Assembly (NCBI GenBank): GCA_030654175.1
Contig: JAURXZ010000020.1
Location: 1-59,445, forward strand
Reading direction: 5' to 3'
Source of the DNA: Bacteroidia bacterium
Lineage (GTDB): Bacteria > Bacteroidota > Bacteroidia > 2-12-FULL-35-15
DNA length: 59,445 bases
This document shows positions 8,271 through 59,445 of the stretch, piece after piece (the first letter of the stretch is position 1; every line of letters starts with the position of its first letter). The notes below the pieces were generated by a model. That model did no database searches. It saw only the letters and a program-made list of their open reading frames with translations, and was not told where the DNA came from. Both the position numbers and the translations under genes were made by a program.

Positions 8271-8642
8271 CTAATTTTTATGTTGTTATGGAAAACGATT
8301 TTTGAATTATACTTTTCTACTGTTTTTTTATTGTTTTCAACCATCCTGAATGTTTAAAATCATTAGATTATAGAGGTTTTTGCTCGTTTTTTCACTTGCC
8401 GCAATCCTAAATTCTAAGTGCAAAATTGAAAAAATGGTTCATTTTAAGATAAATATCCAAAAATATATAACCTTTAATGTTAATTTTTCGTAAAATTTTT
8501 GTATTCACCTGAAATTAATTTATTAAATTCGTCAAGTATGAAACAGCACTACCCCTTTAAAAATAAACCGGTTTACGGGTTGTCTTTTGTTTTTGGCAAT
8601 CTGTCTTCTTTTTTGTGTAGCTTGTCTGGTAATTCATGCAGG
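8271..8642. other. Divergent intergenic region fbaB / surface cluster
   Basis: AT-rich. I see no repeat, RNA or clear promoter for the plus-strand cluster; a poor AATTTTTG box lies at about 8494-8501. Its right part is in frame with the next gene (ATG at 8538), so translation might start there instead of at 8643. Confidence 0.35.
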
Positions 8643-9872
8643 ATGGTCGATTTCTTGATTAAAAAAATAATTAACCTTTCCCCTTCACTTTATTTCTTGT
8701 TTTTCGTTTTACTTTCTCTTCATTCAACTTTTTCTTTTTCACAGATCGATGTCATTAACAATGGCCTTCCGGTTCGTAACTCCAACGACAGTGTTATTAT
8801 CATGGGTAATTTAACTCATCAAAACAATGGAAGTATTGCCAATTCAGGAAGTTTTTATATTTCTGGCGATTTGATAAATAATAACCCTTCCGGAACTATA
8901 TTTTCTAACGGAACTAACGGCTGGCTTCATCTGAATGGAGGCATGCAAAACATTGGTGGTAATACAAGTACCCATTTCAATAATCTTAATTTATCAGGCA
9001 CAGGAGTGAAGCAACTCAATGGGGTAAATACTGAAATTGAAGATACCCTGGCGCTCAACGATCGGGAATTTGCCTCTGGGGATAACACCGTCCTTGTTAT
9101 GGCTACCGGTACAGGCGTTGTTACCCGTTCAAATGGATTTGTAAGCAGTACTAATGATGGAGGGCTTTCCCGTAATACACTCTCTACAAGCACCTATTCT
9201 TTTCCCGTTGGTTCTAGTGCAGGAACCTCACTCTTTCGTCCGGTTGATGTTACTCCCAATTCAGTAACTGCAAATACTTTCAAGGTGAGAATGGCAAATG
9301 TGAATGCTACTGCTGAAGGCTTTGATCTTGCTGTGAAGGATGTTGCCCTTGGCGAAATAAATCCGAATTTTTATCATCGTATCAATAGGGTAAATGGTAA
9401 TTCATTTGCAGATATTACAATTTATTATGATAGTATTTTAGATGGTGATTTTACAGCAATGGCGCAATGGGGCACCACAAGTCAATGGGAAAATCTTGGA
9501 GCAGTTGCTACCACCAGCAATTATGGATTTCCTGGATTAACAAAAACAGGAATCTATAATTTCTCTACCACACCTTTTGCCTTATCATCAGAAGTGAATG
9601 CAAGTGTTTTTGTGCCAAACGTATTTTCTCCTAATGGTGATGGCTTTAACGATGTATTACGTGTGAGGGGTAAGGGAATTGAGGAGTTGCAATTTATCAT
9701 TTTCAACCGTTGGGGAGAAAAAGTATTTGAAACATCCGATGTCAATTCAGGCTGGGATGGCACTCAAAACGGTGAACCTATGAATTTGTCGGTGTTCGTA
9801 TATGTTCTCAAAGGGAAATACATAGACGGAAAATTCTTTGATGTAAAAGGGAATGTTACCCTCATGAGGTAA
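8643..9872 (+). CDS. T9SS type B sorted exoprotein (gliding-motility-type CTD)
   Basis: 409 residues from ATG 8643, chosen because MVDFLIKKIINL...HSTFSFSQ forms a normal signal peptide. ATG 8538 would add 35 residues. The middle is beta-rich with no family I can name; it has an N-terminal VINNGLPVRNSN and several NNG/SGT-rich strands. The C-terminal ~85 residues are the gliding-motility-associated (type B) sorting domain: FVPNVFSPNGDGFND, IFNRWGEKVFE, GWDGTQNG, FVYVLKGKY. Such proteins cross the outer membrane through the type IX system and often depend on a PorP/SprF partner. That partner is encoded 67 bp downstream. Role inferred: surface adhesin or motility component. Confidence 0.85.
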   Translation: MVDFLIKKIINLSPSLYFLFFVLLSLHSTFSFSQIDVINNGLPVRNSNDSVIIMGNLTHQNNGSIANSGSFYISGDLINNNPSGTIFSNGTNGWLHLNGGMQNIGGNTSTHFNNLNLSGTGVKQLNGVNTEIEDTLALNDREFASGDNTVLVMATGTGVVTRSNGFVSSTNDGGLSRNTLSTSTYSFPVGSSAGTSLFRPVDVTPNSVTANTFKVRMANVNATAEGFDLAVKDVALGEINPNFYHRINRVNGNSFADITIYYDSILDGDFTAMAQWGTTSQWENLGAVATTSNYGFPGLTKTGIYNFSTTPFALSSEVNASVFVPNVFSPNGDGFNDVLRVRGKGIEELQFIIFNRWGEKVFETSDVNSGWDGTQNGEPMNLSVFVYVLKGKYIDGKFFDVKGNVTLMR

Positions 9873-9939: not shown

Positions 9940-11019
9940 ATGAAAGTAAAATACATACATATCTTCGCTTTTTTAATTGTCAATTATCAATTATTGATTG
10001 TCAATTGCTATGCCCAGGATATTCACTTTTCACAAACCAATACGACACCTTTGCTTGTTAACCCTGCATTAACAGGTTTTATGGGAAATAATCACAGAGC
10101 CATCTTAAATTATAAGAATCAATGGATTGGAATGGGATCAGCTGGTGCAACTTATCGCACCGGGGCGTTTTCTTACGATACGCGTTTATTAACCAAAAAG
10201 TTCAAAACAGGCTATATTGGCGCTGGAATTAATGCTTTTAAAGATGTTGCCGGTGATTTAAAGCTGGGTACTACCCAACTGAATATTTCTTTTGCCGGTA
10301 TTGTGATCATCAATAAAAAGCAGTCGATATCCGGTGGTATACAAGGAGGTTATGTACAAAAAAGTATTTCTACTGCGGATATGAAATGGGATAGCCAGTA
10401 TGATGAAGGTGCCGGGGTATTCAACCCTCAGTTATCTTCCAACGATGTTGCTTCCATTCCTCCTTATCGATATGGTGATTTTTCAGGAGGGCTTGCCTGG
10501 AATTATAGTTCAAAGCAAACCTATATGACTGCCAATAATCAGTTAAAAGTGAATTTAGGGATTGCTGCTTTCCATATTAATCGTCCGAGTCAAAAATTAA
10601 ATCCATACAATACCAACTCTACCGATGATCTGTATACCAAATTCATTGCCCATGGTTCAGCTGTAATTGGTATAGCTTCAACAAATTATGAATTTCAACC
10701 ATCAGTTATTTTGTTTAAACAAGGTGGGGCTTTTGAGTTAAATATGGGAGCAATGATCCGTTGCAAAATTAAAGGAGAATCGAGATACACTGGTAATGTG
10801 GAGTCAATGGCTGTATCGCTGGGAGCACAATACAGAATTGGAGATGCTTTCATTCCTATGATGATGTTTGAATATTCTAATTATGCGCTTGGGGTTAGTT
10901 ATGATATCAATACTTCAATGCTAAAACAAAGCACAGGCTCGAAAGGCGGACTTGAAATTTCGTTGAGATTTACCACTCCGGATTTTAGCAACCGTTCATC
11001 TTCAAGATTATTAAAATAA
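9940..11019 (+). CDS. PorP/SprF family type IX secretion membrane protein
   Basis: 359 residues. The signal peptide ends CYAQ. It is followed by the family hallmark QDIHFSQ...PLLVNPALTGFMGNNHRAILNYKNQW (residues about 26-62) and a 12-14 strand outer membrane barrel ending in an aromatic strand. PorP/SprF proteins assist secretion or attachment of specific type B T9SS substrates such as SprB. The position between the type B exoprotein and an OmpA protein matches that arrangement. The signal-peptide codons (LIVNYQLLIVNC) come from a repeated AATTGTCAATTATCAATT-like DNA run. Only 3 bp separate it from the next gene, so they are co-translated. Confidence 0.92.
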   Translation: MKVKYIHIFAFLIVNYQLLIVNCYAQDIHFSQTNTTPLLVNPALTGFMGNNHRAILNYKNQWIGMGSAGATYRTGAFSYDTRLLTKKFKTGYIGAGINAFKDVAGDLKLGTTQLNISFAGIVIINKKQSISGGIQGGYVQKSISTADMKWDSQYDEGAGVFNPQLSSNDVASIPPYRYGDFSGGLAWNYSSKQTYMTANNQLKVNLGIAAFHINRPSQKLNPYNTNSTDDLYTKFIAHGSAVIGIASTNYEFQPSVILFKQGGAFELNMGAMIRCKIKGESRYTGNVESMAVSLGAQYRIGDAFIPMMMFEYSNYALGVSYDINTSMLKQSTGSKGGLEISLRFTTPDFSNRSSSRLLK

Positions 11020-11022
11020 CGT

Positions 11023-12924
11023 ATGAGAAATTATTTTTACATCCTGCTAATTATTCTAGGGATGACAGATCAACTTAAAAGCCAGGAAAATATGGACTCA
11101 GTCGAACATATTATTACAAATTTAGGGCTTACCGTGAATACACCATATGATGAATTTTCTCCGATCATATCATCCGATGGTTTAGTGTTGATATTTACAT
11201 CCACACGTCCAATTCTTAAAGAAGACATTGCAAAAAAAAATCAAGGATTTGAAAATGTTTATATTTCGTATTATAATGATATGACCTGGAAATGGAGTGA
11301 AGCCAAAATGTTGGGTGAAACGATCAATCAGCCTGGAAGAAATAATTCTCCGATTGCACTTTCTAATGATGGGCAGAGGATGCTGTTATACAGAGGTGAT
11401 CCGGATGGAAACATTTATGAATCTGTTTTAAATGGAGAACAATGGTCAGAACCGGTTAAACTGCCTGAACCTATTAATTCGAGTAAACATGAATCAACTG
11501 CCAGCATCTCACCTGATGGACGAACCATTTATTTTGTGAGCAATCGTAAGGGCGGACAAGGGAAATTGGATATATGGTTAAGCCATCAGGATAACACGGG
11601 TACCTGGGGGAAAGCAGAGAATCTTGGTGCAACCATAAATACAGACGACAATGAAGAAGGTGTGTTTATTCATCCTGATGGGAAAACACTTTACTTCAGC
11701 TCCATGGGGCATAATAGCAGCGGAGGCTTTGATATTTTTAAATCTATATTTGAAAATGGCAGCTGGAGTACACCTGTTACTTTAGGTAATTCCATAAATA
11801 CACCAGAGGATGATTTGTTCTTCACCTTAACTGCAGATGGGAAAACAGGTTATTATTCTACAGCTTATCTGGGGAATGTAGGTTCAAAAGAGGGAACAAT
11901 TTCCAAGGAAAAAACCGCTGCAACGGATTCATTAGTAAGAACCATTCTGGACGCACAGATTTTAATTGAAGAGCAGATTAAACGTGTTCAAAATGCTAAA
12001 TTGGTGATAACAGATCTTAAGCAGGAAAAGGCTCAACAGGTGATAAGGGAAACTCAGGTTCAGCTGGCTCAAATGGCTATAGAGGTTCAAAAAGTGATAA
12101 AGGAAGCACAAGCTCTTCTGGTAGTAAAGGAAGTGCTTGTCAATATGGGTGCAGCAGGTGCCAGCAGTGATACAATAAGTATAACTTCAACAGGTAGAAA
12201 CAATATTGCTGCAGCGCCAATAGCTGCGACCATGCGTGAGGGAGGTTATGGTAAAAAAGATATTTATGAAATAAGTTTTAAAAATAAAAAAACCGAATCA
12301 AACCTTACCTTGTTTAAAGGTGTTGTCATGGATTTTGAAACACTTGATCCTATAGGAACAGATATTGAAATTTCTGATAATGATAAAAATGAAATTATAG
12401 CCAACATTCAATCTAATAGCGTTACAGGAAAATACCTTATTTCCCTGCCTGCAGGTAAAAATTACGGGATAACCATAAAAAAGAAAGGATATTTGTTTTT
12501 CTCTGAAAACTTCGATATTCCTGTTTCGGAAGCCTTTAAAGAAATTAATAAGAATATTCAATTGCAAAAATTCAATGTAGGAAATACAATAACATTAAAA
12601 AATGTTTTCTATGATCAGGGAAAGGCTACATTGAAACCTGAATCTCTTTCCGAAATTAACCAGTTGGTTAATTTGATGAATTTAAATATCAACATTAAAA
12701 TAGAAGTAGCAAGTTATACGGATAGTGAAGGATCTGCTTCATCAAATTTAACACTCTCACAAGCAAGGTCACAATCAGTTTTGGATTTTCTTTTTTCTGC
12801 AGGTATTAGCAAGGAGCAAGTGGTAGCAAAAGGTTATGGAGAATCAGATCCAATAGCCTCAAATGATACCGAAGAAGGAAGAAAACTAAATCGCAGAACG
12901 GAGATCAAAATATTGGAGCAATAG
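11023..12924 (+). CDS. OmpA/PD40 outer membrane protein with a large unusual insert
   Basis: 633 residues. Signal peptide (1-20), then PD40/WD40-like beta-propeller blades (about 35-285) with repeated SPDGRTIYFVS and DIWLS/DIFKS strands. An insert of about 120 residues (about 287-405) follows, then the last blade (EGGYGKKDIYEI), a carboxypeptidase-regulatory-like beta domain (430-515) and an OmpA peptidoglycan-binding domain (525-633; ends RKLNRRTEIKIL). Related OmpA/PD40 proteins anchor T9SS parts to peptidoglycan (PorE-like), but the TPR domain of PorE is absent. The insert splits a blade between GYYST and REGGYG. It reads as helix-forming Gln/Val/Glu-rich sequence, but its DNA carries a Gly-x-y pattern in another frame (see findings). 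Confidence 0.88.
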   Translation: MRNYFYILLIILGMTDQLKSQENMDSVEHIITNLGLTVNTPYDEFSPIISSDGLVLIFTSTRPILKEDIAKKNQGFENVYISYYNDMTWKWSEAKMLGETINQPGRNNSPIALSNDGQRMLLYRGDPDGNIYESVLNGEQWSEPVKLPEPINSSKHESTASISPDGRTIYFVSNRKGGQGKLDIWLSHQDNTGTWGKAENLGATINTDDNEEGVFIHPDGKTLYFSSMGHNSSGGFDIFKSIFENGSWSTPVTLGNSINTPEDDLFFTLTADGKTGYYSTAYLGNVGSKEGTISKEKTAATDSLVRTILDAQILIEEQIKRVQNAKLVITDLKQEKAQQVIRETQVQLAQMAIEVQKVIKEAQALLVVKEVLVNMGAAGASSDTISITSTGRNNIAAAPIAATMREGGYGKKDIYEISFKNKKTESNLTLFKGVVMDFETLDPIGTDIEISDNDKNEIIANIQSNSVTGKYLISLPAGKNYGITIKKKGYLFFSENFDIPVSEAFKEINKNIQLQKFNVGNTITLKNVFYDQGKATLKPESLSEINQLVNLMNLNINIKIEVASYTDSEGSASSNLTLSQARSQSVLDFLFSAGISKEQVVAKGYGESDPIASNDTEEGRKLNRRTEIKILEQ

Positions 12925-12963: not shown

Positions 12964-15189
<2,226 letters not shown>

Positions 15190-15251: not shown

Positions 15252-17867
15252 ATGGATTTTGTTAAAACTAAGGGTGTTCTAATCGCTGTGACGATTTTCT
15301 CTCTCACCTTAGGTGAGGTTTGGGGTGTGGCATCCTACGCCCAAAATGTGGGTATAAATACTACTGGTAATGCGCCAAATTCTTCGGCATTATTAGATAT
15401 TAATGCAAGTCCCGGAAATGACAAAGGGATACTTATTCCACGTTTACCCTTAACTGCTACTAATGTAGGTACACCAATTTCACCTGCACCTGGTGTCAGT
15501 GAAACCGGACTCATGGTATTTAACACTGCTACAGCAGGTGTCCCACCAAATGATGTGGTTCCCGGGTTTTATTACTGGAACGGAACCGCATGGGCTCCTT
15601 TAGGTGGAGGATCCTCAGGGGCAGGCGGTTGGACTGATGACGGAACGGTGGTTAGGTTAACGACAAGCACCGATTTTGTGGGTATTGGCACAGCAAGCCC
15701 TGCTTCAACTTCTGCATTGGATATTTCTTCTACAACAAAAGGGATACTTATTCCCAGAATGACTACAGCTCAGCGAGATGCGATTGCTACTCCTGCAACC
15801 GGGTTGCAGGTATATAACACAGATTGTAAAATGTTGAATTATTGGTCAGGTACTTGTTGGATCTCTATGAGCAAGGCGCTGCCTAGTCCCGGTGCTATAA
15901 CCAGTACTCCTGCTTCTACGGTTTTTTGTGCAGGGCAATCACGTACCTACTCTATTGCAGCTGTACCGGGTGCAACTACTTATACTTGGACAGTACCAGC
16001 AGGAACAACAATAAATTCAGGGCAAGGGACCACTTCAATAAATGCTACATTCGGTAATATTTCAGGTAACGTTTGTGTAGATGCTTCCAATAGTTGCGAA
16101 ACAAGTCCGGTGCGCTGTATCAGCGTGAGTGTGGATCCTATCCCTAATACACCAGGAAACATTACTGGAATTACAAGTATTAATCCCGGTCAGCAATCCG
16201 TAACCTATTTTGTTGCTTCTGTAAATGGAGCCAGTACCTATACATGGTCAGTTCCTGCAGGTGCTACAATCGCTTCAGGAACCGGTACAACTACTATTGT
16301 AGTTAATTTCGCTTGTAATGCTTCATCGGGTAATATTTCTGTAACAGCCAACAGCACCTGTGGTTCAAGTCCTGCAAGTGCTTTAGCTTTAACAATCACG
16401 CCTTTACTTGCAGTTAATGCCGGGGCTGCTGTATTTGGCGGTACAACTCAAACAATAGGCAATGCTGCTACTGGAGGGACTGCTGGTTATACATATGCCT
16501 GGCTTCCGACTGCTAATCTTTCTGCATCAAATATAGCTACTCCTGTTGCGCAGTGTACTGGTGCCACCACTACTTATACCGTTACTGCTACGGATTCAAG
16601 AAGTTGTACAGCAACAAGCACTGTGGTTGTTACAAGAAATCTTGCAGCAAGTGCAGGAGGAAATTTAACCGGACCAGGGGCGATTGGCGGTGCACCAACA
16701 GCTACCGGAGGAGCTGGTACATACACCTATTCCTGGACCACTCCTTCTGAACTTTCAAGTTCAACGGTATCAAATCCTACTGCAAAGGCTTGCAATACTA
16801 CTACTTTTACCGTAACCGTAACCGATGCAAATTCCTGTACAGCAGCGAGTGCTGGTGTTACGGTAACGAAAAATCTTGCCGCCAGCGCAGGAGCGAATCA
16901 AACTATGATAAGTGGCTGCTCAAAAGTTATTGGTGGGAGTCCAACGGCTACAGGTGGTGCAGGGGCATATACTTATTCCTGGAGTTTAGGAACAGGATTA
17001 TCGAGTACAACTATAGCTAACCCAACCACTTCTACCACTTCCACTATAACTTATACAGTTACTGTAACTGATGGCAATTCATGCACAGCAACAAATTCAA
17101 TGACTTTAACTATTGGAGCTGGCACTGCAGTAACATTTAACAATACCAGCACAGGCCAATCGGGTACTATTCAAAACTGGACAGTTCCTGCAGGAATAAC
17201 CTGTATCAATATTGAAACTTGGGGAGCACAAGGAGGAGCAGGTGCTGCAGGGGCTGGTGGATTAGGAGCACGAATGAAGGGTACATTTACTGTAACAGCT
17301 GGGCAAGTATTGAAGATTTTGGTTGGTCAACAGGGCCCTTCGCCAGGTAGCAATGATGGTGGTGGTGGCGGTGGAACTTTCGTTACAGATAATGCCAACA
17401 GCCCTTTGATTATTGCAGGTGGAGGTGGTGGTGGTAGTTATTCTGCTCCAGGTGCAGGTATTGCAGGTACTACGGCCAATAGTGGAACTGCGGGTGCAAA
17501 TGGAGGTACAGGTGGAACAGCTGGTGGTGGTGGAACTTCTGTTGGATGTTCAGGTGCTGGTGGTGGTTTAACAGGTAATGGTGGTAATGGTCCATCTTGT
17601 GGTAGTGCATGTAATGGTGGTTTATCTTTTATAAATGGTGGTACAGGGGGATGTACTTCCAGTAATTGTACAGGAGGATATGGTGGTGGTGGTGGTACAC
17701 ATGGAGGTGGCTGGGGTGGCGGAGGCGGAGGCGGGTACTCGGGTGGTGGTGCATCCACAAGCAGTCAATACGGTGGTGGAGGTGGTGGGTCTTACAATTC
17801 GGGCGCAAATCCCAGTAATACCAGTGGTGTGAAAGCCGGGCATGGGCAGGTGGTGATAACCTACTAG
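15252..17867 (+). CDS. Modular surface protein with ALK-like glycine-rich domain, paralog 1
   Basis: 871 residues. Signal peptide (1-30, ends SYAQ). Two copies of the LD..(x)KG.L.PR module follow (about 32-115 and 125-210; the second ends NYWSGTCWISM). Next come two PKD/Ig-like domains (about 215-390, with TYTWTVPAG and CETS/CGSS cysteines) and three ~80-residue Ig-like modules (about 390-620; xVxAGAN...GGSPTATGG..YTYSW...TVTDANSCTA). The C-terminal glycine-rich domain (about 624-871) has WTVPAGITCINIETWGAQGG, ILVGQQG, GGGGGGTFV, PLIIAGGGGG, GGGGGGYSGGG and GHGQVVITY. The order of these motifs matches the ALK/LTK glycine-rich domain (Pfam Gly_rich type). No T9SS sorting domain. Inferred adhesin; the ligand is unknown. 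Confidence 0.8.
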   Translation: MDFVKTKGVLIAVTIFSLTLGEVWGVASYAQNVGINTTGNAPNSSALLDINASPGNDKGILIPRLPLTATNVGTPISPAPGVSETGLMVFNTATAGVPPNDVVPGFYYWNGTAWAPLGGGSSGAGGWTDDGTVVRLTTSTDFVGIGTASPASTSALDISSTTKGILIPRMTTAQRDAIATPATGLQVYNTDCKMLNYWSGTCWISMSKALPSPGAITSTPASTVFCAGQSRTYSIAAVPGATTYTWTVPAGTTINSGQGTTSINATFGNISGNVCVDASNSCETSPVRCISVSVDPIPNTPGNITGITSINPGQQSVTYFVASVNGASTYTWSVPAGATIASGTGTTTIVVNFACNASSGNISVTANSTCGSSPASALALTITPLLAVNAGAAVFGGTTQTIGNAATGGTAGYTYAWLPTANLSASNIATPVAQCTGATTTYTVTATDSRSCTATSTVVVTRNLAASAGGNLTGPGAIGGAPTATGGAGTYTYSWTTPSELSSSTVSNPTAKACNTTTFTVTVTDANSCTAASAGVTVTKNLAASAGANQTMISGCSKVIGGSPTATGGAGAYTYSWSLGTGLSSTTIANPTTSTTSTITYTVTVTDGNSCTATNSMTLTIGAGTAVTFNNTSTGQSGTIQNWTVPAGITCINIETWGAQGGAGAAGAGGLGARMKGTFTVTAGQVLKILVGQQGPSPGSNDGGGGGGTFVTDNANSPLIIAGGGGGGSYSAPGAGIAGTTANSGTAGANGGTGGTAGGGGTSVGCSGAGGGLTGNGGNGPSCGSACNGGLSFINGGTGGCTSSNCTGGYGGGGGTHGGGWGGGGGGGYSGGGASTSSQYGGGGGGSYNSGANPSNTSGVKAGHGQVVITY

Positions 17868-17937
17868 GGATTAGAATTGTTAAATTATCTGCTTAAAACA
17901 AATATTGAAATTAATAGATATAAGAAAAAAATAAAAA

Positions 17938-20520
17938 ATGAAATTACGTGGGACTAAACTCATTTTATTAGCAGCAACGATTTTCTCCCTCACTTTGGGG
18001 GAGGCTTGGGGTGTTGCTTCTTTTGCACAAAACGTGGGTATCAACACTACCGGAAACGCCCCAAACTCTTCCGCACTATTAGATATTAATGCAAGCCCTG
18101 GAAATAACAAAGGGGTACTTATCCCACGTTTGCCTTTAACTGCAACTAATAGTGGCAGTCCTATTTCACCATTACCCGGTGTTGCTGAAATAGGGCTTAT
18201 GGTATTTAACACAGCTACAGCAGGCGTTCCTCCAAATGATGTAATCCCCGGGTTTTATTACTGGAATGGTACCGCATGGGCTCCTTTGGGAGCAGGAGGA
18301 TCAACTGCAGGTGGTTGGACGGATGATGGAACTGTGGTGAGGCTTACAACAAGTACTGATTTTGTTGGAATTGGTACAGCAAGCCCTGCCGCTACCTCAG
18401 CATTGGATATTACTTCCACTACCAAGGGGGTACTTATTCCCAGAATGACTACTGCGCAGCGTGATGCCATCACAACACCTGCAACTGGCCTGCAAATATA
18501 TAATACGGATTGCAAATCATTGAACTATTTTACTGGCACCTGCTGGATTTCTATGAGCAAATCACTTCCCGATCCCGGGATAATTACCAGTACTCCGGCA
18601 ACCACTGTTTTTTGTGCCGGACAGGTCAGAACTTATTCCATACCCGCTGTACCAGGGGCAACATCCTATACATGGTCCGTGCCTGCAGGAACAAGCATTA
18701 CTTCTGGTAATGGTACTACCTCGATAAGTGCTACTTTTGGCAATATTTCCGGTGATGTATGCGTGAAAGCAAGTAATAGTTGTGAAACCAGTGAAAAAAC
18801 ATGCCTGGCTGTCAGCGTTGATCCTATTCCTAATACCCCTGGAAATATTACTGGTATAACAAGTATTAATCCCGGTCAGCAATCGGTAACGTATTTTGTT
18901 GCTTCAGTAAATGGAGCTAGTACTTATACCTGGACCGTACCTGCAGGTGCTACAATTGCCTCAGGTACTGGTACAACTACTATCGTTGTTAACTTTGCCT
19001 GTAATGCTTCTTCTGGTAACATTTCTGTAACTGCAAACAGTACCTGTGGTTCAAGCCCTGCAAGTGCTTTAGCATTAACAATTACGCCTTTGCTTGCAGT
19101 TAATGCCGGAGCTGGTGTATTTGGAGGTACTACCCAAACTATTGGAAATGCAGCAACAGGAGGTACTGCAGCTTATACCTATGCCTGGCTTCCCACTGCT
19201 AATCTTTCTGCATCAAATATAGCTACTCCTATTGCACAATGTACCGGTGCAACAACTACTTATACGGTAACTGTAACAGATTCTCGAACCTGCACAGCAA
19301 CAAGTAGTGTGGTTGTTACCAGAAGTCTTGCAGTTAGTGCCGGGGCAGGTGTATTTGGGGGTACTACTCAAACAATAGGCAATGCTGCAACTGGAGGTGC
19401 TTCTGGTTATTCTTATGCCTGGCTCCCGGCAAGTAATCTCTCCAGTTATATAATTGCTAGTCCTATAGCCCAATGTACGGGAGGATCAACCACATATACC
19501 GTTACTGCAACTGATGCAAACAGCTGTACTGCAACAAGTACCGTGGTTGTTACCAGGAATCTGGTGGCTAGTGCAGGTGCAAATCAAGCAATTACCTGTG
19601 CAGGGGTTGCTATAGGCGGAAGTCCTACTGCTACCGGTGGGAATGCGACTTACACTTATTCCTGGAGTCCAACCGCAGGCTTATCCAGTGCTACAGCCGC
19701 CAATCCAACGTCCGGAGTATGCCCCACAGCAACTTATACTGTAACAATAACCGATGCAAACGGATGTACAGCCACGAGTTCTATGGTGTTGACGAAAAAT
19801 CCTTGTTCAGTAACATTTAATTATACAGGTGCTGCCCAAACGTGGACAGTGCCTGCTTGTGTTACCTCTATTACTATAGATGCTAATGGTGCACAAGGTT
19901 CCACAGCAAATGCAGGTGCAGGCGGGGCGGGGGGACGAGCACAAGGAACTTTGGTAGTTACACCAGGAGCAACAATAAATGTGTATGTTGGGGGGCAAGC
20001 TGGTTTTAACGGTGGCGGAGCTGGTGGGGCTCCTGGAGGCGTTGCAGGTGGAGTTGGTGGAGGTGCATCAGATCTTCGAATTGGTGGTGTTGCATTAGCA
20101 AATAGGGTTGTAGTTGCAGGCGGTGGCGGTGGTGGTGGCGCGGCAGGTGGTTGGTCAGGAGGGGCAGGAGGAGTGGGTGGAGGAACAACTGGCGGAGCCG
20201 GTGGCCCGAGTAATGGAGGCAGTCCTTTTGGTGGACAAGGTGGTTCCCAAGTTGCTGGAGGTACTACTGGTGGAGGGTGTGGTTGCTGTGCCGGTACAGC
20301 AGGTTCTCTCGGACTTGGTGGTGCAGGCGCAAATTCCAGTAGTTGGTCAAGCGGTGGAGCTGGCGGAGGTGGTGGTGGGTATTATGGTGGTGGTGCAGGC
20401 CACGTATGCGGTAGTGGTGATGGTGGAGGTGGAGGATCTTCATACATTGTGGGGTTGGGTGGTGGTTCAACAACAAGTGGTGTGAGAGCAGGAAATGGTT
20501 TGATAATAATAACCTACTAA
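17938..20520 (+). CDS. Modular surface protein with ALK-like glycine-rich domain, paralog 2
   Basis: 860 residues with the same plan as the preceding gene: signal peptide (ends SFAQ), two KG.L.PR modules, two PKD/Ig-like domains and three Ig-like modules (LAVNAGAG, LAVSAGAG and LVASAGAN starts). The glycine-rich C-terminus (about 620-860) has WTVPACVTSITIDANGAQG, VYVGGQAG, VVVAGGGGGGG, GGGGGGYYGGGAG and AGNGLIIITY. The first ~400 residues are nearly identical in DNA to paralog 1 in blocks (for example 18830-19100 against 16140-16420), which suggests recent duplication or gene conversion. The 70-bp spacing to both neighbours suggests one transcript. Confidence 0.8.
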   Translation: MKLRGTKLILLAATIFSLTLGEAWGVASFAQNVGINTTGNAPNSSALLDINASPGNNKGVLIPRLPLTATNSGSPISPLPGVAEIGLMVFNTATAGVPPNDVIPGFYYWNGTAWAPLGAGGSTAGGWTDDGTVVRLTTSTDFVGIGTASPAATSALDITSTTKGVLIPRMTTAQRDAITTPATGLQIYNTDCKSLNYFTGTCWISMSKSLPDPGIITSTPATTVFCAGQVRTYSIPAVPGATSYTWSVPAGTSITSGNGTTSISATFGNISGDVCVKASNSCETSEKTCLAVSVDPIPNTPGNITGITSINPGQQSVTYFVASVNGASTYTWTVPAGATIASGTGTTTIVVNFACNASSGNISVTANSTCGSSPASALALTITPLLAVNAGAGVFGGTTQTIGNAATGGTAAYTYAWLPTANLSASNIATPIAQCTGATTTYTVTVTDSRTCTATSSVVVTRSLAVSAGAGVFGGTTQTIGNAATGGASGYSYAWLPASNLSSYIIASPIAQCTGGSTTYTVTATDANSCTATSTVVVTRNLVASAGANQAITCAGVAIGGSPTATGGNATYTYSWSPTAGLSSATAANPTSGVCPTATYTVTITDANGCTATSSMVLTKNPCSVTFNYTGAAQTWTVPACVTSITIDANGAQGSTANAGAGGAGGRAQGTLVVTPGATINVYVGGQAGFNGGGAGGAPGGVAGGVGGGASDLRIGGVALANRVVVAGGGGGGGAAGGWSGGAGGVGGGTTGGAGGPSNGGSPFGGQGGSQVAGGTTGGGCGCCAGTAGSLGLGGAGANSSSWSSGGAGGGGGGYYGGGAGHVCGSGDGGGGGSSYIVGLGGGSTTSGVRAGNGLIIITY

Positions 20521-20587: not shown

Positions 20588-23050
20588 ATGAAAAATAAAA
20601 TCATTTTTATAGCAGCAGCGATTTTCTCCTTCACTTTGGGTGAGGCTTGGGGTGTTGCTTCTTTTGCACAAAACGTTGGTATCAATACTACAGGAAATGC
20701 CCCAAACTCTGCAGCATTATTGGATATTAATGCTAGCCCTGGAAATAATAAAGGAATTCTTATTCCACGTTTACCATTAACTGCTACTAATAATGGCAGT
20801 CCAATTTCACCATTGCCCGGTGTTGCTGAAACTGGTCTTATGGTATTTAACACTGCTACAGCAGGCGTTCCTCCAAATGATGTAATTCCAGGGTTTTATT
20901 ACTGGAATGGTACCGCATGGGCTCCTTTGGGAGCAGGAGGATCAACTGCCGGGGGGTGGACGGATGATGGAACAGTGGTAAGACTTACCACAAGTACCGA
21001 CTTTGTTGGCATTGGAACAGCAAGTCCTGCCGCTACATCTGCATTAGATATTGCTTCTACAACAAAAGGTTTACTGATTCCCCGCATGACCACTGCACAA
21101 CGAGACGCTATTTCAACGCCTGCTATTGGTTTACAAATATATAATACTGATTGTAAAGTAGTTGATTATTGGTCAGGTTCCTGCTGGATCTCTATGAGCA
21201 AATCACTTCCCAGTCCCGGTGCTATCACCAGCAGCGGTACAACTGTTTTTTGTGCAGGGCAAAGCAGGACTTATACTATAGCAGCAATAGCAGGTGCCAC
21301 TTCTTATACCTGGACGGTTCCAGCAGGTACAACCATTAATTCGGGGCAGGGTACCGTTTCTATAAGTGCTACTTTTGGTAATATCTCCGGAAGCGTATGT
21401 GTGAATGCTAATAATGCCTGTGAAACCAGTGGTCAGTCATGCCTTGCTGTAAGTGTAGATCCGATACCTAATACTCCCGGAAACATTACGGGGCCATCTA
21501 GCGTCAATCCTGGCCAGCAATCGGTAAACTATTTTATTGCCTCTGTTAATGGAGCCAGCGCTTACACATGGGCATATAGTGGAACAGGTCTCACTATTGC
21601 TTCGGGAACAGGCACTACCAGTATTGTGGTGAATTTCGCATGTAATGCTACTGCAGGCAATTTAACAGTAACTGCTAATAGTACTTGTGGGGCGAGTACA
21701 GCATCTTCGTTGGCTTTAACGGTTACCCCTTTGCTTGCAGTTAATGCTGGAGCTGGGGTATTCGCTGGAGCTACCATGGGAAATACAGCTACGGGAGGGA
21801 CAGGCCCTTATACTTACGGTTGGGGGCCCACAGGGGATCTCTCCAGTTCTTCAACAGCTGTTACCACTGCACAATGTACCGGTATTACCACTACTTATAC
21901 GCTTACAGCAACCGATTCACGTTCGTGTATTGCAACAAGCACTGTATTGGTTACCAGAGATCTTACTACCCCAACTGCAGGTACTCATATACCTAGCACA
22001 ACCCAAATAGTTTGGAACTGGATTGCCGGTACCGGTACCGCTGGATATAAGTGGAATACAACTAATAATTACGGTACAGCAACAGATAATGGGGCAAGTA
22101 CAAGCAAGACAGAGACCGGGCTTACCTCAGGTACTACTTATACAAGATACGTTTGGGCCTATAACAGTAATGGTTGTGTATCTTCTGTATTAACACTTAT
22201 TTTTACCACATCCGGACAAATATCTTATACCGCAACTGGTACTGTTAATTGGACATGCCCTGTTGGAGTTACATCAATTGGTGTTTTAGTAGTAGCTGGT
22301 GGAGGAAGTGGAGGTAATCATAACACTACAAACGGCAACGGTGGTGGTGGAGGTGGTGGTTTGATTTTTAATGCTGCATATTCCGTAACGCCAGGGAATG
22401 TTTATACAGTCACCGTTGGAGCCGGAGGTGCAAGGATTGCTAATGCAACTTGTGGTCAAGGGAACAATGGACAAAATTCTGTTTTTGGGACACTTACAGC
22501 AATAGGTGGTGGTGGTGGTGGTTCTTCCGGTTGTGGTACTGGTGGTGGTAAAAATGGAGGTAGTGGTGGTGGTGCGGCATATCCCAATGGTAATGGTTCT
22601 TCAAATAGTGCAGGTACCGGAGTTGCGGGCCAGGGAAATGCGGGAGGTAGTACAGCAGTAGCTTGGGATGGTGCCGGTGGTGGTGGTTATGGTTCTGTGG
22701 GAGTTGCAGGAAGTGGTTCAGGTACAGGTTGCAATGGAGGAGCCGGTTATGTAACATCATTTTCAGGTTCATCAGTAGGGTATGCTGGTGGTGGTGGTGG
22801 CGGTGGTAACAGCAGTGAACATGGTGGTGATGGTTATGATGGGGGAGGACGTGGGGAAGGTACTACACAAACTCACAATTATAATAGTTATCCAGCAGGT
22901 ATGAACGGAACAACCAGGGGAAGCAATACTCCTGATGCAATAGCCAATACCGGTGGTGGAGGCGGAGGTGGTTCTTATTGGGCCTGTAACGGTGGTTGGT
23001 GTACGGGCTCCGGCCAGGGAGGCTCCGGTATAGTTATCATAAAATGGTAA
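20588..23050 (+). CDS. Modular surface protein with glycine-rich domain, paralog 3
   Basis: 820 residues. Signal peptide, two KG.L.PR modules and two PKD/Ig-like domains as in paralogs 1 and 2. It has only one xVxAGAG Ig-like module (about 380-460), then a fibronectin-III-like segment (TAGTHIPSTTQIVWNW...GLTSGTTYTRYVWAYN, about 460-540). The glycine-rich C-terminus (541-820) begins WTCPVGVTSIGVLVVAGGGSGG and ends SGIVIIKW. It lacks the LVGQQG element and looks more like the general bacterial glycine-rich domain (YTVTVGAGG, AIGGGGGG). The array has therefore diverged by swapping modules. It is the last gene of the co-directional cluster; tamL converges on it 61 bp away. Confidence 0.8.
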   Translation: MKNKIIFIAAAIFSFTLGEAWGVASFAQNVGINTTGNAPNSAALLDINASPGNNKGILIPRLPLTATNNGSPISPLPGVAETGLMVFNTATAGVPPNDVIPGFYYWNGTAWAPLGAGGSTAGGWTDDGTVVRLTTSTDFVGIGTASPAATSALDIASTTKGLLIPRMTTAQRDAISTPAIGLQIYNTDCKVVDYWSGSCWISMSKSLPSPGAITSSGTTVFCAGQSRTYTIAAIAGATSYTWTVPAGTTINSGQGTVSISATFGNISGSVCVNANNACETSGQSCLAVSVDPIPNTPGNITGPSSVNPGQQSVNYFIASVNGASAYTWAYSGTGLTIASGTGTTSIVVNFACNATAGNLTVTANSTCGASTASSLALTVTPLLAVNAGAGVFAGATMGNTATGGTGPYTYGWGPTGDLSSSSTAVTTAQCTGITTTYTLTATDSRSCIATSTVLVTRDLTTPTAGTHIPSTTQIVWNWIAGTGTAGYKWNTTNNYGTATDNGASTSKTETGLTSGTTYTRYVWAYNSNGCVSSVLTLIFTTSGQISYTATGTVNWTCPVGVTSIGVLVVAGGGSGGNHNTTNGNGGGGGGGLIFNAAYSVTPGNVYTVTVGAGGARIANATCGQGNNGQNSVFGTLTAIGGGGGGSSGCGTGGGKNGGSGGGAAYPNGNGSSNSAGTGVAGQGNAGGSTAVAWDGAGGGGYGSVGVAGSGSGTGCNGGAGYVTSFSGSSVGYAGGGGGGGNSSEHGGDGYDGGGRGEGTTQTHNYNSYPAGMNGTTRGSNTPDAIANTGGGGGGGSYWACNGGWCTGSGQGGSGIVIIKW

Positions 23051-50564: not shown

Positions 50565-54674
<4,110 letters not shown>

Positions 54675-54763: not shown

Positions 54764-57700
54764 TTATTTTTTCGTGTCTTTTTTAATTGTTTTCAATTTC
54801 GCCTCCACCGGCAAATTTGTTTGCAGTATTTTCTCAATTGCCGCCTCTAGTTTTGCAATCTTTAATTCCGATATTTTTTGCTGTGACTCTTGTTCTTTTT
54901 TTATTTCTTCTATCAGTTTTTGTTGAATAGAGTATTGGTTACCTAAAGTTGTGTTTTCCTCTTGCAAATTATCAATAGCCGATTGCAAACCCTTGTTTTC
55001 CATTTTGAAACCAGTGATTTGAAACTTTAAACTATCTTTTTCAGCATTCAACTCCTGCATACCTTTTACCAATGGCATAATAAAATCAACATAACGTAAG
55101 GTATAAACCTCCTTATCATTCCTTGGTACATCTATGCCCGGAAAGTTGAAACCACTTTCTTTCGCAGCTTTTTCAACATCCTGAGCTAAAAACCCAATAC
55201 GGGTTTCTTTTTCAACTTCGCTGAAGTTCATTTTATTTACCAGTGAATCAGGTGTGCCCCATATTTTATGAAGTTCTGTTGGCCGCACATTATAAGTTAC
55301 AGGTTTAAGTTTTAAAATGAAATCTAATCCGGCAACATTATCTTTAATGTTTGTTTTATATCGCGCATCAGAATAAGCAGTAAGGCCACCAACCTGTGCA
55401 CGGATTTGTGCAATAGCCGTATTGCCCAGCATTACCTGATTATTGCCAGTGCATTGAGCATCAAAAATACCATAACCGAGTGCAGTTACATTAGTTCGTA
55501 CCGTAGAAATAATAGTTGAAGAACCAATAAATGTACATTGGCTATGAGTGGCTCCACCACCTCCACCTGCGAAATACCCCAAGGCAGTATTGTCAGATCC
55601 TGAGGTGTTGCTAAAAAGAGAACTTGCTCCGCAAGCGGTATTATTGTCGCCAATGGTATTGGAGACAAGCGCACCTTCTCCGCTGGCATTATTCCTTACT
55701 CCTGAAATATTTTGACGGAGTGCATTAGCTCCATTGGCGGTATTATTGCTCCCACTGGTGTTGGAAGACAGCGCGGAATATCCGCTCGCAGAGTTGTACT
55801 GCCCGCTAGTGTTGCCTGTTAGCGCAATAGCTCCAACTCCGGTGTTGAACTGAGAAAAGTTGGCGTACAGTGCCTGATATCCATTGGCTGTATTGGAATT
55901 ACCTCCTACACCGGCATAAAGAGCCTGATAACCTGTTGCGGTATTGTAGAATCCTGCAGCGTTATAAAGTGCCTGACATCCATTAGCAGTATTGAAGTTG
56001 CCTCCTCCCCAGTTTGAATAGAGCGACTGGTATCCGGTAGCGGTATTACCCGTTCCTATGGTGTTGTTATAAAGGGCCTGATTTCCTATAGCAGTATTTT
56101 GATTACCATTTGTGTTTGCAGTTGGTTGGTTTAAATAAAGTGCTTGGTAACCAATAGCCACATTATCGCTGTTCCAGGCAACACCACCATTATTGAAGGA
56201 TTGGGTGTATAAAGCATCATTTCCAATGGAGGTATTTCGGCTTGCAGTCAAATTGCTATAAAGCGCATGGTTTCCTATAGCCGTATTGTAGCTACCGATA
56301 GTGTTAAAATAAAGTGCTACAAGTCCCAAGGCGGTATTAAAACTTCCTGTGTTGTTCCAATAAAGACTACTCGCACCAATGGCTGTATTATTACTTCCTG
56401 TGGTATTATTAATAAGTGCATAACTACCGCTGGCGGTATTGTTATTTCCTGTAGTGTTGGTTTGAAGCGCCTGAAATCCATTGGCAGTATTCCACATTCC
56501 TGTGGTGTTGCCCCATAATGTTTGATAGCCAATAGCAGTATTCCAATTGCCTGTATTTGCTGCAGCTGAAACGGAGCCGCGTAGTGCCTCATATCCAAGA
56601 GCCACATTGTAATTGTTAAAGGCACCGACTTGATCATTAGCATAATACATTGCATTCGTTCCAATAGCAGTGGCATTAGAACCTGCTACATTGGTGAAAA
56701 GCGCTGAACTTCCGCTTGCTGTATTGTTGCTTCCTATATTATTGCTAACAAGCGCAGCCCACCCATTGGCAGTATTATTGCTTCCTGTTGTGTTTGCCTG
56801 AAGTGAAGAAGTTCCGGTGGCTGTATTGGCCTGTCCTGTGGTGTTGGCTGGAAGCGAACTATATCCAATAGAGGTATTATTGAATCCCGAAATGTTGAAT
56901 TTAAGCGCTGCTGCTCCAATGGCGGTATTATTAAATCCTGTAGTATTGGATAAAAGAGCATACATTCCGATTGCAGTATTAACGGTTCCACTGGTATTTG
57001 CATTACCAGACTCAAAACCATAAAATGTATTAAATGTGGCGTTGTCTATCCTTCCTGCTTTTTGGTTATTTACTCTAATATTAAAAGGTATATTATCAGT
57101 TGTACCAATAAAGTTGGTACCGTCCACCGTTCCAGCATTGCCGAGTAGCAGCCAACCAGGGCCGCCCGCTCCAGGAGTTTGCCAACTGCCTTGTCCGGTG
57201 CCATCCGAAGTAAGTACTTTTCCTGCAGCCTGGTTTCCATCTACAATTTTTATAGTTGTTCCTGAAGCACCAATAATTTCAAGCTTAGCACCAGGGCTAT
57301 TAGTATTGATACCAACATTACCGGTACTGAGTACCGATAAAACTTCAGTTGTTGAGTTTCCAAAAGCAAGGCGAACAGCGGGGTTGGTAGGTCGAGCAAT
57401 CTTCATTAAATTTGTACCAGTCCAGTCTGCTAAAGCGATCTCTACTTCACCTCCTGCCCAAGGCGACAGTTTTAGCCCTATATTATTAGCTGTATAAAGT
57501 TGAGAAGCAGGATTTACTCCGTAATTTGGACCTTCGCAGAATATTTCTACTGGAATTGTTGTGGATCCTTGATTAGCAGATCGAACACTAATAGCTTCTG
57601 CACCACAGTCAACTTGAATTTTTGCAGGTGTCGCCCCCCCCATACCGATGTATCCGACATGAAGAGCAGCTGTTGGAGTGGTATTGCCAATTCCTATAAA

Positions 57701-59445
57701 ACCTGTGCTTGTCACTCTTAACCGCTCCAAATTATTAGAACCAACAATAAAATCTTTTGCATCTGAAGTCCCTACATAATTTTGTCCAGCTCCAATAGCT
57801 ACACCAAAAGCAGAAGTAGAAGGTGTTGTTGTTGCGTTTCCAAGGATAGTCCAGTTGTTCCCCGTTGCAGGTGTTGTCCATGTGGGGGCTCCGGCTCCAG
57901 CCGAAGTAAGCACTTGCCCTGCTGTTCCCACAGCTGTTGAAGCGTGTTGCGTTCCGTTAGAATAGGTTGCAGAACCTGCAGCGCCAATGGTTCCAATAGC
58001 TGTTCCACCATTGGCTATGGGTAAAATTCCAGTAAAAGTAATGTTTGGTGTTGCTCCTCCACTTGAAGCAATATTTCCGCTGCCGGTTACTGTTGTTACC
58101 GTACCGCCTGAGTTAGCATCTGCCATCCATGCCGGGTTTCCTGCTCCATCAGTTTTCCAAACCAAATTAAATTGGCCTGCACCTGAAGCAACTACACCCG
58201 AGCTTGTGGAGGAATTTGCCGCCACTGAAATTACAGGTGTTGCGCCTCCAGAAGAAGAAATTGGTAAAGTGCCAGTTACAGAAGTTAAAGTACCAGTTGT
58301 TGGTGTGGTCCATGTAGGCGCTCCTGCTCCGCCCGAAGTAAGTACTTGTCCTGCTGTTCCTACTGCTGTTGAAGCGTGTTGTGTTCCATTAGAATATGTT
58401 GCAGAACCTGCAGCGCCTATGGTTGAAATATTTGTACCTCCATTGGCAATTGGCAAGAGGCCTGTAACTTTGGTTGTAAGATCAATTGTACCATTTGTTA
58501 TATCTGAATTTACAATTTGGCTCCATGAAGGATTTCCTGCTGCATTCCCATGTAAAACGGTAGTAGTAGTACCCTGATTTTGAAATAAAGCAGAAGCAAG
58601 GGTTGGTGTAAAAAAGGCCGGAGCCGCAGCTACACCAGTGTTATTACCCAAAATGGAATAAGCTCCGGCATTTGCAATAGTAAACGATAATGCAGGTGTT
58701 GTGGTGGGGGTAGCTACAGATGTAGTGAATAACGGAGCTAAATTACCGGAACTAAAAGACGTTAATGTTCCAACTGTTGGAGTTGTCCAAGTTGCCAAAC
58801 CAACACCATCAGAAGTTAAAACTTTACCTGCTCCGGGAGCGCCTCCTGTTATTTTTACCTGGCCTGCCACTTCTAATTTTGTACCAGGACTTACTGTTCC
58901 GATACCCACATTGGTTCCATCATCATAAATAACAGAATTACAAATAGAAGTTGGGCTGGTAAATTTCGTAACATAATTAGTGGTTGCAGTGCCACACATT
59001 AAGTTCTGAATTGAAACACCATTAACAACAAGTGAATCAAAGTTTGCATAGTTTGCAAACAAGCTATCTGCATTTATATAATTTGCAAATAGAGAATCAA
59101 TATTTGCATAGTTAGCAAATAGGCTATCTGCATTTATATAATTTGCAAATAGAGAATCAATATTTGCGTAGTTAGCAAATAGACTATCTACATCTATATA
59201 ATTTGCAAATAGAGAATCAATATTTGCATAGTTAGCAAATAGACTATCCACATTTATATAATTTGCGAAGAGGGAATCAATATTTGCATAGTTGGCAAAC
59301 AGGCTATCCACATTTATATAATTAGCAAAGAGTGAATCAATGTTTACATAGTTAGCAAAAAGACTATCCACATTTATGTAATTGGCAAAGAGTGAATCAA
59401 TGTTTGCATAGTTGGCGAACAGGCTATCTGCATTGATGTAATTAG
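54764..59445 (-). CDS. Giant tail-fibre-like adhesin with S74 chaperone domain (5' end outside window)
   Basis: At least 1560 residues; the frame is open to the window edge, so the true N-terminus is missing. Order seen: at least 13 copies of a ten-residue repeat DSLFANYxNx; [21 protein letters not shown]; tail-fibre-like modules (VGIGTVSPGTKLEV; GVGIGAGQNY); a long array of YadA-head-like repeats (NTAIG..AL..NTTG, nt about 55560-57010). Then comes a C-terminal Peptidase_S74/intramolecular chaperone domain starting YSDARYKTNI (Ser codon at 55370-55372), with IGFLAQDVE and YVDFIMPLVKGMQEL. A ~110-residue coiled coil follows. S74 domains trimerise fibres and cut themselves off at the Ser-Asp site. 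Probable trimeric surface fibre; no T9SS domain. Confidence 0.85.
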   Translation of the reverse strand, partial: NYINADSLFANYANIDSLFANYINVDSLFANYVNIDSLFANYINVDSLFANYANIDSLFANYINVDSLFANYANIDSLFANYIDVDSLFANYANIDSLFANYINADSLFANYANIDSLFANYINADSLFANYANFDSLVVNGVSIQNLMCGTATTNYVTKFTSPTSICNSVIYDDGTNVGIGTVSPGTKLEVAGQVKITGGAPGAGKVLTSDGVGLATWTTPTVGTLTSFSSGNLAPLFTTSVATPTTTPALSFTIANAGAYSILGNNTGVAAAPAFFTPTLASALFQNQGTTTTVLHGNAAGNPSWSQIVNSDITNGTIDLTTKVTGLLPIANGGTNISTIGAAGSATYSNGTQHASTAVGTAGQVLTSGGAGAPTWTTPTTGTLTSVTGTLPISSSGGATPVISVAANSSTSSGVVASGAGQFNLVWKTDGAGNPAWMADANSGGTVTTVTGSGNIASSGGATPNITFTGILPIANGGTAIGTIGAAGSATYSNGTQHASTAVGTAGQVLTSAGAGAPTWTTPATGNNWTILGNATTTPSTSAFGVAIGAGQNYVGTSDAKDFIVGSNNLERLRVTSTGFIGIGNTTPTAALHVGYIGMGGATPAKIQVDCGAEAISVRSANQGSTTIPVEIFCEGPNYGVNPASQLYTANNIGLKLSPWAGGEVEIALADWTGTNLMKIARPTNPAVRLAFGNSTTEVLSVLSTGNVGINTNSPGAKLEIIGASGTTIKIVDGNQAAGKVLTSDGTGQGSWQTPGAGGPGWLLLGNAGTVDGTNFIGTTDNIPFNIRVNNQKAGRIDNATFNTFYGFESGNANTSGTVNTAIGMYALLSNTTGFNNTAIGAAALKFNISGFNNTSIGYSSLPANTTGQANTATGTSSLQANTTGSNNTANGWAALVSNNIGSNNTASGSSALFTNVAGSNATAIGTNAMYYANDQVGAFNNYNVALGYEALRGSVSAAANTGNWNTAIGYQTLWGNTTGMWNTANGFQALQTNTTGNNNTASGSYALINNTTGSNNTAIGASSLYWNNTGSFNTALGLVALYFNTIGSYNTAIGNHALYSNLTASRNTSIGNDALYTQSFNNGGVAWNSDNVAIGYQALYLNQPTANTNGNQNTAIGNQALYNNTIGTGNTATGYQSLYSNWGGGNFNTANGCQALYNAAGFYNTATGYQALYAGVGGNSNTANGYQALYANFSQFNTGVGAIALTGNTSGQYNSASGYSALSSNTSGSNNTANGANALRQNISGVRNNASGEGALVSNTIGDNNTACGASSLFSNTSGSDNTALGYFAGGGGGATHSQCTFIGSSTIISTVRTNVTALGYGIFDAQCTGNNQVMLGNTAIAQIRAQVGGLTAYSDARYKTNIKDNVAGLDFILKLKPVTYNVRPTELHKIWGTPDSLVNKMNFSEVEKETRIGFLAQDVEKAAKESGFNFPGIDVPRNDKEVYTLRYVDFIMPLVKGMQELNAEKDSLKFQITGFKMENKGLQSAIDNLQEENTTLGNQYSIQQKLIEEIKKEQESQQKISELKIAKLEAAIEKILQTNLPVEAKLKTIKKDTKK
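59040..59445 (-). repeat. 60-bp tandem repeat (two 10-residue units)
   Basis: The sequence repeats every 60 bp (TTTATATAATTTGCAAATAG-type) and encodes alternating DSLFANYINV and DSLFANYANI. It continues beyond the window. Confidence 0.95.

Follow-up and report, generated by a model that had tools for sequence, protein, structure and literature searches.

ALK is a major cancer receptor, and its ligand-binding fold was deemed very unusual when it was solved. Here we describe relatives of this fold, the TNF-like and glycine-rich (TG) domain of ALK and LTK, at the C-termini of neighbouring paralogues encoded on contig JAURXZ010000020.1 of a Bacteroidia bacterium (assembly GCA_030654175.1). The whole stretch of DNA analysed, 59,445 nucleotides long, is called the window, and coordinates are positions in it. 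The paralogues are abbreviated p1, p2 and p3, and "head" denotes the C-terminal glycine-rich domain of each.

Four published descriptions, each cited for the excerpts available, provide the background. In cyanophage Pam3, gp24 combines a TNF-like with a glycine-rich part and forms a trimer; host recognition is attributed to it, and it is described as similar to nematode ALK. For the solved fibre, a match to nematode ALK over 125 residues is reported (PMC9608196). Glycine-rich polyproline-II bundles have been noted in both S16 gp38 and ALK/LTK (PMC13243192). For a fibre of a Klebsiella phage, restored infection is reported to have coincided with two changes in the glycine-rich domain, and the authors consider a role in lipopolysaccharide binding or catalysis likely, with further validation wanted (PMC12671077). 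Finally, a glycine-rich domain of unknown function was described in 2010 in Trichomonas vaginalis BspA-GRD, a flavobacterium, C. difficile, B. cereus and phages (PMC2843621).

Similarity of the p1 and p2 heads to the ALK/LTK domain

Sequence comparison and predicted fold together support the p1 and p2 heads as homologues of the ALK/LTK TG domain. An ALK/LTK-like domain at these two C-termini had been proposed in a first-pass annotation of the window, and both lines of evidence uphold that proposal; p3, a third paralogue with a Gly_rich_2 head, had been missed. The three genes and their parts are as follows.

15252..17867 (+): p1, open reading frame (ORF) of 871 amino acids (ORF list; PKD_6 2e-41, Pfam)
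15342..17135 (+): p1 stalk, residues 31-628 (p1-p3 alignment; two PKD_6 matches and a K319L-like PKD match)
17136..17864 (+): p1 head, ALK/LTK-type TG domain (phmmer, profile, AlphaFold2 model)
17938..20520 (+): p2, ORF of 860 amino acids, architecture as p1 (ORF list; PKD_6 8e-39)
19837..20517 (+): p2 head, TG domain of another subfamily than that of p1 (PF12810 1.1e-7; AlphaFold2 model; tree)
20588..23050 (+): p3, ORF of 820 amino acids, N-terminus and PKD stalk as in p1 (PKD_6 6.7e-35)
22229..23047 (+): p3 head, Pfam Gly_rich_2 domain (PF21722 4.6e-20)

Searched against the PDB with phmmer, the p1 head retrieved eight distinct chains at E ≤ 10, all of them ALK or LTK (best 3.3e-8). A profile built from p1 together with 27 relatives matched human ALK (3.3e-21), LTK (3.2e-18) and nematode ALK (7.4e-7), with the next chain at 0.093. 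The corresponding values were 2.5e-27 for ALK with a 76-row profile (next 0.024); 3.2e-8 for ALK, 6.3e-8 for nematode ALK and 0.0037 for LTK with a p2-type profile (next unrelated chain 0.079); and 1.5e-25 for LTK and 3.9e-25 for ALK with a profile built from 31 viral-contig heads (next 0.0077). Since all four profiles find ALK/LTK, we regard all these microbial subfamilies as related to it, the p1-type and viral heads being nearest by profile score. The alignments comprised p1 with 27 of 32 candidate loci (A1; those dropped were one locus with a terminal frame shift, three near-copies and the locus of p2 itself), 74 of 85 loci with p1 and p2 (A2, the 76 rows), 29 of 31 p2-type loci with p2, p1 and 11 others (A3), 25 of 31 with p2 (A5) and 31 of 56 (A6).

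Used alone in phmmer against the PDB, the p2 head retrieved no ALK chain, and the p3 head neither an ALK chain nor a related solved structure. The link of p2 to ALK/LTK is supported by the p2-type profile, by the predicted fold and by Pfam family PF12810 (ALK_LTK_GRD, cut-off 24.5 bits), which p2 passes with 32.5 bits for the whole protein and 31.6 bits for the domain alone. The C-terminus of p3 matches PF21722 (Gly_rich_2) with 73 bits (cut-off 24.3; 4.6e-20), and the p1 head reaches 20.6 bits with this model, below its cut-off.

The first-pass annotation had listed a series of motif words shared in order by p1, p2 and ALK. Its ALK motifs are correct, as seen in the aligned ALK chains, and p1 carries the series in full: WTVP (17178), GAQG (17223), LVGQQG (17319), GGGGGGTFV (17358), PLIIAGGGGG (17403), GGGGYSGG (17724) and GHGQVVITY (17838). 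In p2 the order is kept (WTVP 19843, GAQG 19888, VYVGGQ 19981, VVVAGGGGG 20107, GGGGYYGG 20368, GNGLIIITY 20491) but the wording is not, as GGGGGGTFV, PLIIAGGGGG, GGGGGYSGG and GHGQVVITY are absent. In the alignment, an ALK insert of about 30 residues after VGQQG is missing from the bacterial profile.

The p1 and p2 heads were modelled by template-free AlphaFold2, with window sequences and related loci making up the input alignments, and the models were compared by Foldseek and VIA-align. The predicted local distance difference test (pLDDT) and predicted template modelling (pTM) scores were 94.1 and 0.92 for the p1 head and 92.6 and 0.90 for the p2 head. Among the Foldseek matches listed against the PDB at E ≤ 0.001, 21 for p1 and 20 for p2, all were ALK or LTK. 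VIA-align superposed the p1 head on LTK (7nx1) with Z 30.6 and 1.6 Å over 212 residues at 38% identity, on human ALK entries with Z 28.8-30.0 and on nematode ALK with Z 21.4; the Pam3 fibre gave Z 9.9 (125 residues), the tip of mycobacteriophage Bxb1 Z 9.7 and others 3.6 or less. For the p2 head, LTK gave Z 15.1 (2.8 Å, 167 residues), Bxb1 9.3 and galectin-3 2.4. The comparison of AlphaFold models with ALK/LTK that had been suggested for both heads thus came out positive for each. S16 gp38 was not among the structure matches listed, an absence that does not speak for a different fold.

These models support a TNF-like fold with a glycine-rich region between strands in both heads. Superposition of 212-221 of the 247 residues of the p1 model on human ALK/LTK chains would imply polyglycine-II helices in this predicted head. 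The training cut-off of AlphaFold2 was in 2018. Since the ALK structures in the PDB were released in 2021 or later, after this cut-off, the models are unlikely to have been copied from them. Six scrambled heads (p1, one full and one with glycines fixed; p2, one full and two glycine-fixed; p3, one glycine-fixed) matched no Pfam family at E up to 10 (0/6). In a PDB search at E up to 10, two glycine-fixed p1 scrambles had no ALK match, and one of them gave a single unrelated chain at 0.12.

Stalks, heads and their occurrence

Read by eye, p1-p3 begin with a signal-like, hydrophobic segment, followed by two short modules (VGIGT...ALLD...KGxLIPR...Y.WNG.W, also by eye), the PKD_6 region and the head, which has a glycine content of 33-41%. 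PKD-like modules have an Ig-like fold. In a Kyte-Doolittle scan with a 19-residue window, the N-terminal maximum (1.74-1.91) is about as high as the maximum beyond residue 40 (1.70-1.83), which lies near residue 377 inside the PKD region. From the signal-like N-terminus and the C-terminal position of the heads, p1-p3 are apparently exported with the heads at the tip, and we infer that they are displayed on the surface. As cargo of the type IX secretion system (T9SS) they were rejected, no sorting signal having been found (NCBIfam, E ≤ 0.1).

The stalk is common to the three proteins. Residues 5-470 of p1 are 88% identical to p2, and residues 2-508 are 75% identical to p3. Over residues 1-385, p1 and p2 are 83-90% identical, with non-synonymous divergence (dN) of 0.08-0.12, synonymous divergence (dS) of 1.0-1.8 and dN/dS of about 0.05-0.12. 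Their heads are 52% identical (dN 0.47, dS 1.5, dN/dS about 0.3), and the heads of p1 and p3 are 36% identical. In a head tree of 80 rows, built with a quick search, the p2 head (entered twice) and eight other p2-type rows group with support 100, apart from p1. Alike stalks with differing tips make the heads look changeable on one holder, and head exchange on a conserved holder is the simplest reading; the heads would have been exchanged and not have diverged in place. In this tree ALK forms a terminal branch of 2.42 next to a single row from a viral contig (support 88), a placement unusable for or against transfer.

The same genome holds further copies of the head. One, at C47:2897-3667, is 63-64% identical to that of p1, and so closer to it than the p2 head, and ends a frame of 1222 amino acids. 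No Pfam family matches this frame, which extends to the contig edge, and the only part it shares with p1 is the short module before the head (49%). Other copies stand near the start of a CHU_C-ending protein (C16) and of a 9698-residue frame (C34). The latter frame, on C34 from about 56100 (L168:6107 onward), opens with a signal-like segment, and a glycine-rich domain (PF21722) comes immediately after it.

A survey of Bacteroidota, proposed in the first-pass annotation, found the domain to be common. The 76-row profile matched at E ≤ 0.001 in 107 of 395 sampled class genomes, own genome included (92 of the 339 good ones; 51 of 196 genera), and the p1 head alone as query in 91 of the 395. PF12810 matched in 13 of 59 relatives and in 6 of 395 genomes of the phylum sample, the own genome being counted in both, and in none of 14 controls; PF21722 matched in one of the 14 control genomes. 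Most of the head family is unnamed by Pfam: 19 of the 76 members match PF12810 and 5 match PF21722 (E ≤ 0.001).

The search for related loci found none with p1 alone as query; the profile query found loci, those on named contigs being the best 80 of 105. At least 168 domain copies came from 77 of the 79 loci listed, some counted twice through overlapping loci (as with L097 and L126, which share part of a contig) or alternative frames of one stretch. Record titles name Bacteroidota in 55 of the 79, and other phyla or only "bacterium" or "archaeon" in the rest; many of these loci are metagenome bins, whose taxon labels may be wrong. Of 109 open frames, some of them alternative readings of one stretch, 24 have the domain C-terminally (at most 40 residues left), 64 carry a longer tail after it and 21 run off the locus edge. 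The tails of relatives scanned numbered 56; they came from ended frames in which over 60 residues follow the domain and the best domain scores 50 bits or more, and identical tails were taken once. Of these, 41 matched the T9SS type A signal at E ≤ 0.001, one type B and three the type C model. Judged by these tails, the head in relatives appears often to be carried on type IX secretion cargo.

Two cases stand beside this survey. Six genomes of one genus, g28 (G062, G137, G277, G300, G322 and G381), have 24 to 66 candidate domain stretches each; all six candidates scored in each genome matched, and a large expansion is likely. In another, distant genome of the class (G200; loci L164 and L165; G200:C1:1954000-1992000), lipoprotein-type genes form an array of 16, divided into two opposed blocks of eight, with a tyrosine recombinase at L164:1332-2348. 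All five genes scanned end in PF12810, and at least one gene of the array has no glycine-rich end. Automatic splitting worked for 14 of the 16 genes, and in these the median identity is 0.67 for the N parts and 0.45 for the heads. The inverted repeat TCTCTTCTCTC-GCG-GAGAGAAGAGA precedes the start of all 16 genes, with one base differing before one of them. This repeat may serve as a recombination site or regulatory element, or may form a hairpin, and the whole is possibly a switching array of ALK-type heads.

The genes upstream of p1 in the window are these.

8499..9872 (+): protein with a type IX secretion signal domain (CHU_C) at its end (PF13585 7.6e-17)
9940..11019 (+): PorP/SprF family type IX secretion membrane protein (TIGR03519 1.9e-43, above cut-off)
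11023..12924 (+): PD40/OmpA protein, PorE-like (Pfam PD40 and OmpA; PorE and CHU_0125 models below NCBIfam cut-offs)
12982..15189 (+): collagen-like (G-x-y) protein, starting with a similar VGIGT/ALLD-type module (PF01391 1.1e-83; module by eye)

Collagen-like proteins with G-S-T type triplets are encoded both at 12982-15189 and at 50565-54662, and each carries the short VGIGT/ALLD-type module of p1-p3. In both, this module gets no Pfam name, and it is a candidate for an unnamed assembly module. At 54764-59371 (-) lies a Peptidase_S74 (endosialidase chaperone) protein with many NTAxG repeats and strong matches to PHROG tail-spike and virion families.

Role of the heads

We think it probable, with some reserve, that the C-termini of p1 and p2 are ALK/LTK TG homologues which, carried on an exported PKD stalk, serve as ligand-recognition heads at the surface and are changeable on one holder. 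Such a head would consist of a TNF-like jelly roll whose loops extend into a bundle of glycine-rich strands. The glycine-locked scaffold would present variable loops, and these would contact the partner, probably a glycan or a protein on a surface; in ALK the same fold binds a cytokine. A stalk common to neighbouring paralogues, with heads of different subfamilies, would amount to one holder with exchangeable heads. Recognition is favoured because of the roles of phage fibres and ALK and because of the pattern of loop variation, the non-glycine columns of the bacterial family having 2.55 bits outside the strands versus 1.97 bits within them. That the bacterial heads bind, and the kind of ligand, are suggested by this analogy.

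Several observations weigh against this reading. These can be summarised as (i) the p1 head scores 20.2 bits with PF12810, under the 24.5-bit cut-off, and whole p1 is not listed at E ≤ 0.1; p1 is therefore termed a homologue and not a formal member of PF12810, and the Pfam check that had been proposed for both heads succeeded for p2 and failed for p1; (ii) no T9SS C-terminal sorting domain of type A, B or C was found in p1-p3 (0 NCBIfam families at E ≤ 0.1); (iii) identity between p1 and p2 declines stepwise, from 70% (residues 386-540) through 63% (541-628) to the 52% of the head, with no jump at the head, and such gradual divergence toward the tip is also compatible with faster evolution in place; (iv) the synonymous sites of p1 and p2 are close to saturation; (v) the p2-type rows of the tree were picked by similarity to p2, so that their grouping with p2 is partly expected, and 31 of the 77 inner branches are open; (vi) over all columns, strands (1.93 bits) and non-strands (1.98 bits) are alike; and (vii) a literature search found no binding result for any bacterial member.

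The TG domain might instead be an assembly or structural module that trimerises, caps a fibre or packs into a coat outside the cell, without binding a foreign ligand. This we consider unlikely. A TNF-like roll, recognised here by its match to ALK/LTK, has a parallel in other TNF/C1q-type C-terminal domains, the adjoining collagen-like protein has a similar N-terminal module, Pam3 gp24 is a trimer, and the equal overall variability of strands and rest would suit such a module. However, the same fold is the ligand-binding part of ALK, according to PDB entry titles, and is taken as the host-recognition part in phage fibres, and the non-glycine positions are the more variable outside the strands. 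An assembly part would moreover be expected to track the stalk, yet the heads differ on a conserved stalk.

On a second reading, which appears distinctly improbable, the bacterium has retained a phage tail-fibre tip, either as a part that it captured or to decoy phage. PHROG searches matched the p1 head to phrog_22713 (1.1e-36), the p2 head to phrog_7388 (5e-22) and p3 to phrog_2295 (2.4e-40), the last across stalk and head. Among predicted viral proteins in BFVD, 123 rows matched the p1 model at E ≤ 0.001, and the best had TMq 0.79 and 0.83 to p1 versus 0.63-0.72 for human ALK/LTK, so that viral models are as near or nearer. Strong relatives also stand at the ends of proteins in viral contigs, and another ORF of the window, distant from p1-p3 (54764-59371), has PHROG matches to tail-spike and virion families. 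Yet the nearer flanking ORFs scanned, which are part of the window's ORFs, include no tail, capsid or integrase gene; tblastn with the p1 head at E ≤ 1e-4 found no match among 50,697 records of phages and 72,556 of plasmids; and in relatives the domain often belongs to T9SS cargo.

Among the BFVD matches, the label "receptor protein-tyrosine kinase" is attached to several proteins of phages and algal viruses. Such labels, which should serve as a warning, probably reflect the TG domain only.

That the resemblance to ALK reflects nothing but shared glycine richness is ruled out, in our judgement, by the scrambles and the predicted fold: the heads are 33-41% glycine and HMMER bias terms reach about 44 bits, but ALK or its Pfam family was matched by 0/6 and 0/2 scrambles, the profile E is 2.5e-27 and the superposition has Z 30.6 over 212 residues.

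Relation to known receptors and phage tips

A wider proposal can be put forward, tentatively and with more doubt than confidence. On it, the domain with which the animal receptors ALK and LTK bind their ligand would be a member, and perhaps a descendant, of a microbial recognition module that passes between bacteria and their viruses as an exchangeable head, and p1-p3 would be a natural head-swap series on one stalk. A large bacterial family is predicted to have the ALK ligand-binding fold (Z about 30 over 212 residues for the p1 model). Its small TG versions are available for studies of binding and stability, the origin of a receptor domain becomes testable, and a role is suggested for a widespread class of Bacteroidota proteins.

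The ALK/LTK TG domain (PF12810) has in common with the p1 and p2 heads the order of motifs, a full-length profile match and the predicted fold. ALK and LTK have a kinase, whereas p1-p3 have no kinase or EGF domain by Pfam and are apparently stalked surface proteins; as receptor tyrosine kinases they were rejected, Pfam scans having found no kinase. The PF21722 family (Gly_rich_2) includes the p3 head, and its match to p1 is weak. The lipoprotein-type proteins of the G200 array resemble p1-p3 in their conserved N part and variable PF12810 head. They differ in having a short lipoprotein-like base (lipobox read by eye) and no PKD match, and one of the five scanned matches Mfa_like_1.

Phage tips offer a further likeness. 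Pam3 gp24 and S16 gp38 have a bundle of glycine strands like the p1 head, and in gp24 the base is TNF-like and ALK-like, according to the excerpt available (PMC9608196). The p1 head matches the Pam3 fibre with Z 9.9 over 125 residues versus Z 30.6 over 212 for LTK, and p1 is not known from a phage particle.

We provisionally take the glycine-rich domain of BspA-GRD to be the PF12810 domain, following Pfam's description of that family. It is likened to p1-p3 by description, the available excerpt of its report containing no fold and no ALK link (PMC2843621). In the open-access literature, among the matches listed, no title or abstract start linked bacterial cell-surface proteins with the ALK fold, and fold terms had no match in PMC12017499.

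That bacteria and phages have a glycine-rich domain in common was already known (PMC2843621), and the link to ALK is contained in the name of the Pfam model. What is new, as far as we have searched, is the closeness to ALK/LTK, the breadth across Bacteroidota, the T9SS link and the layout of stalk and head.

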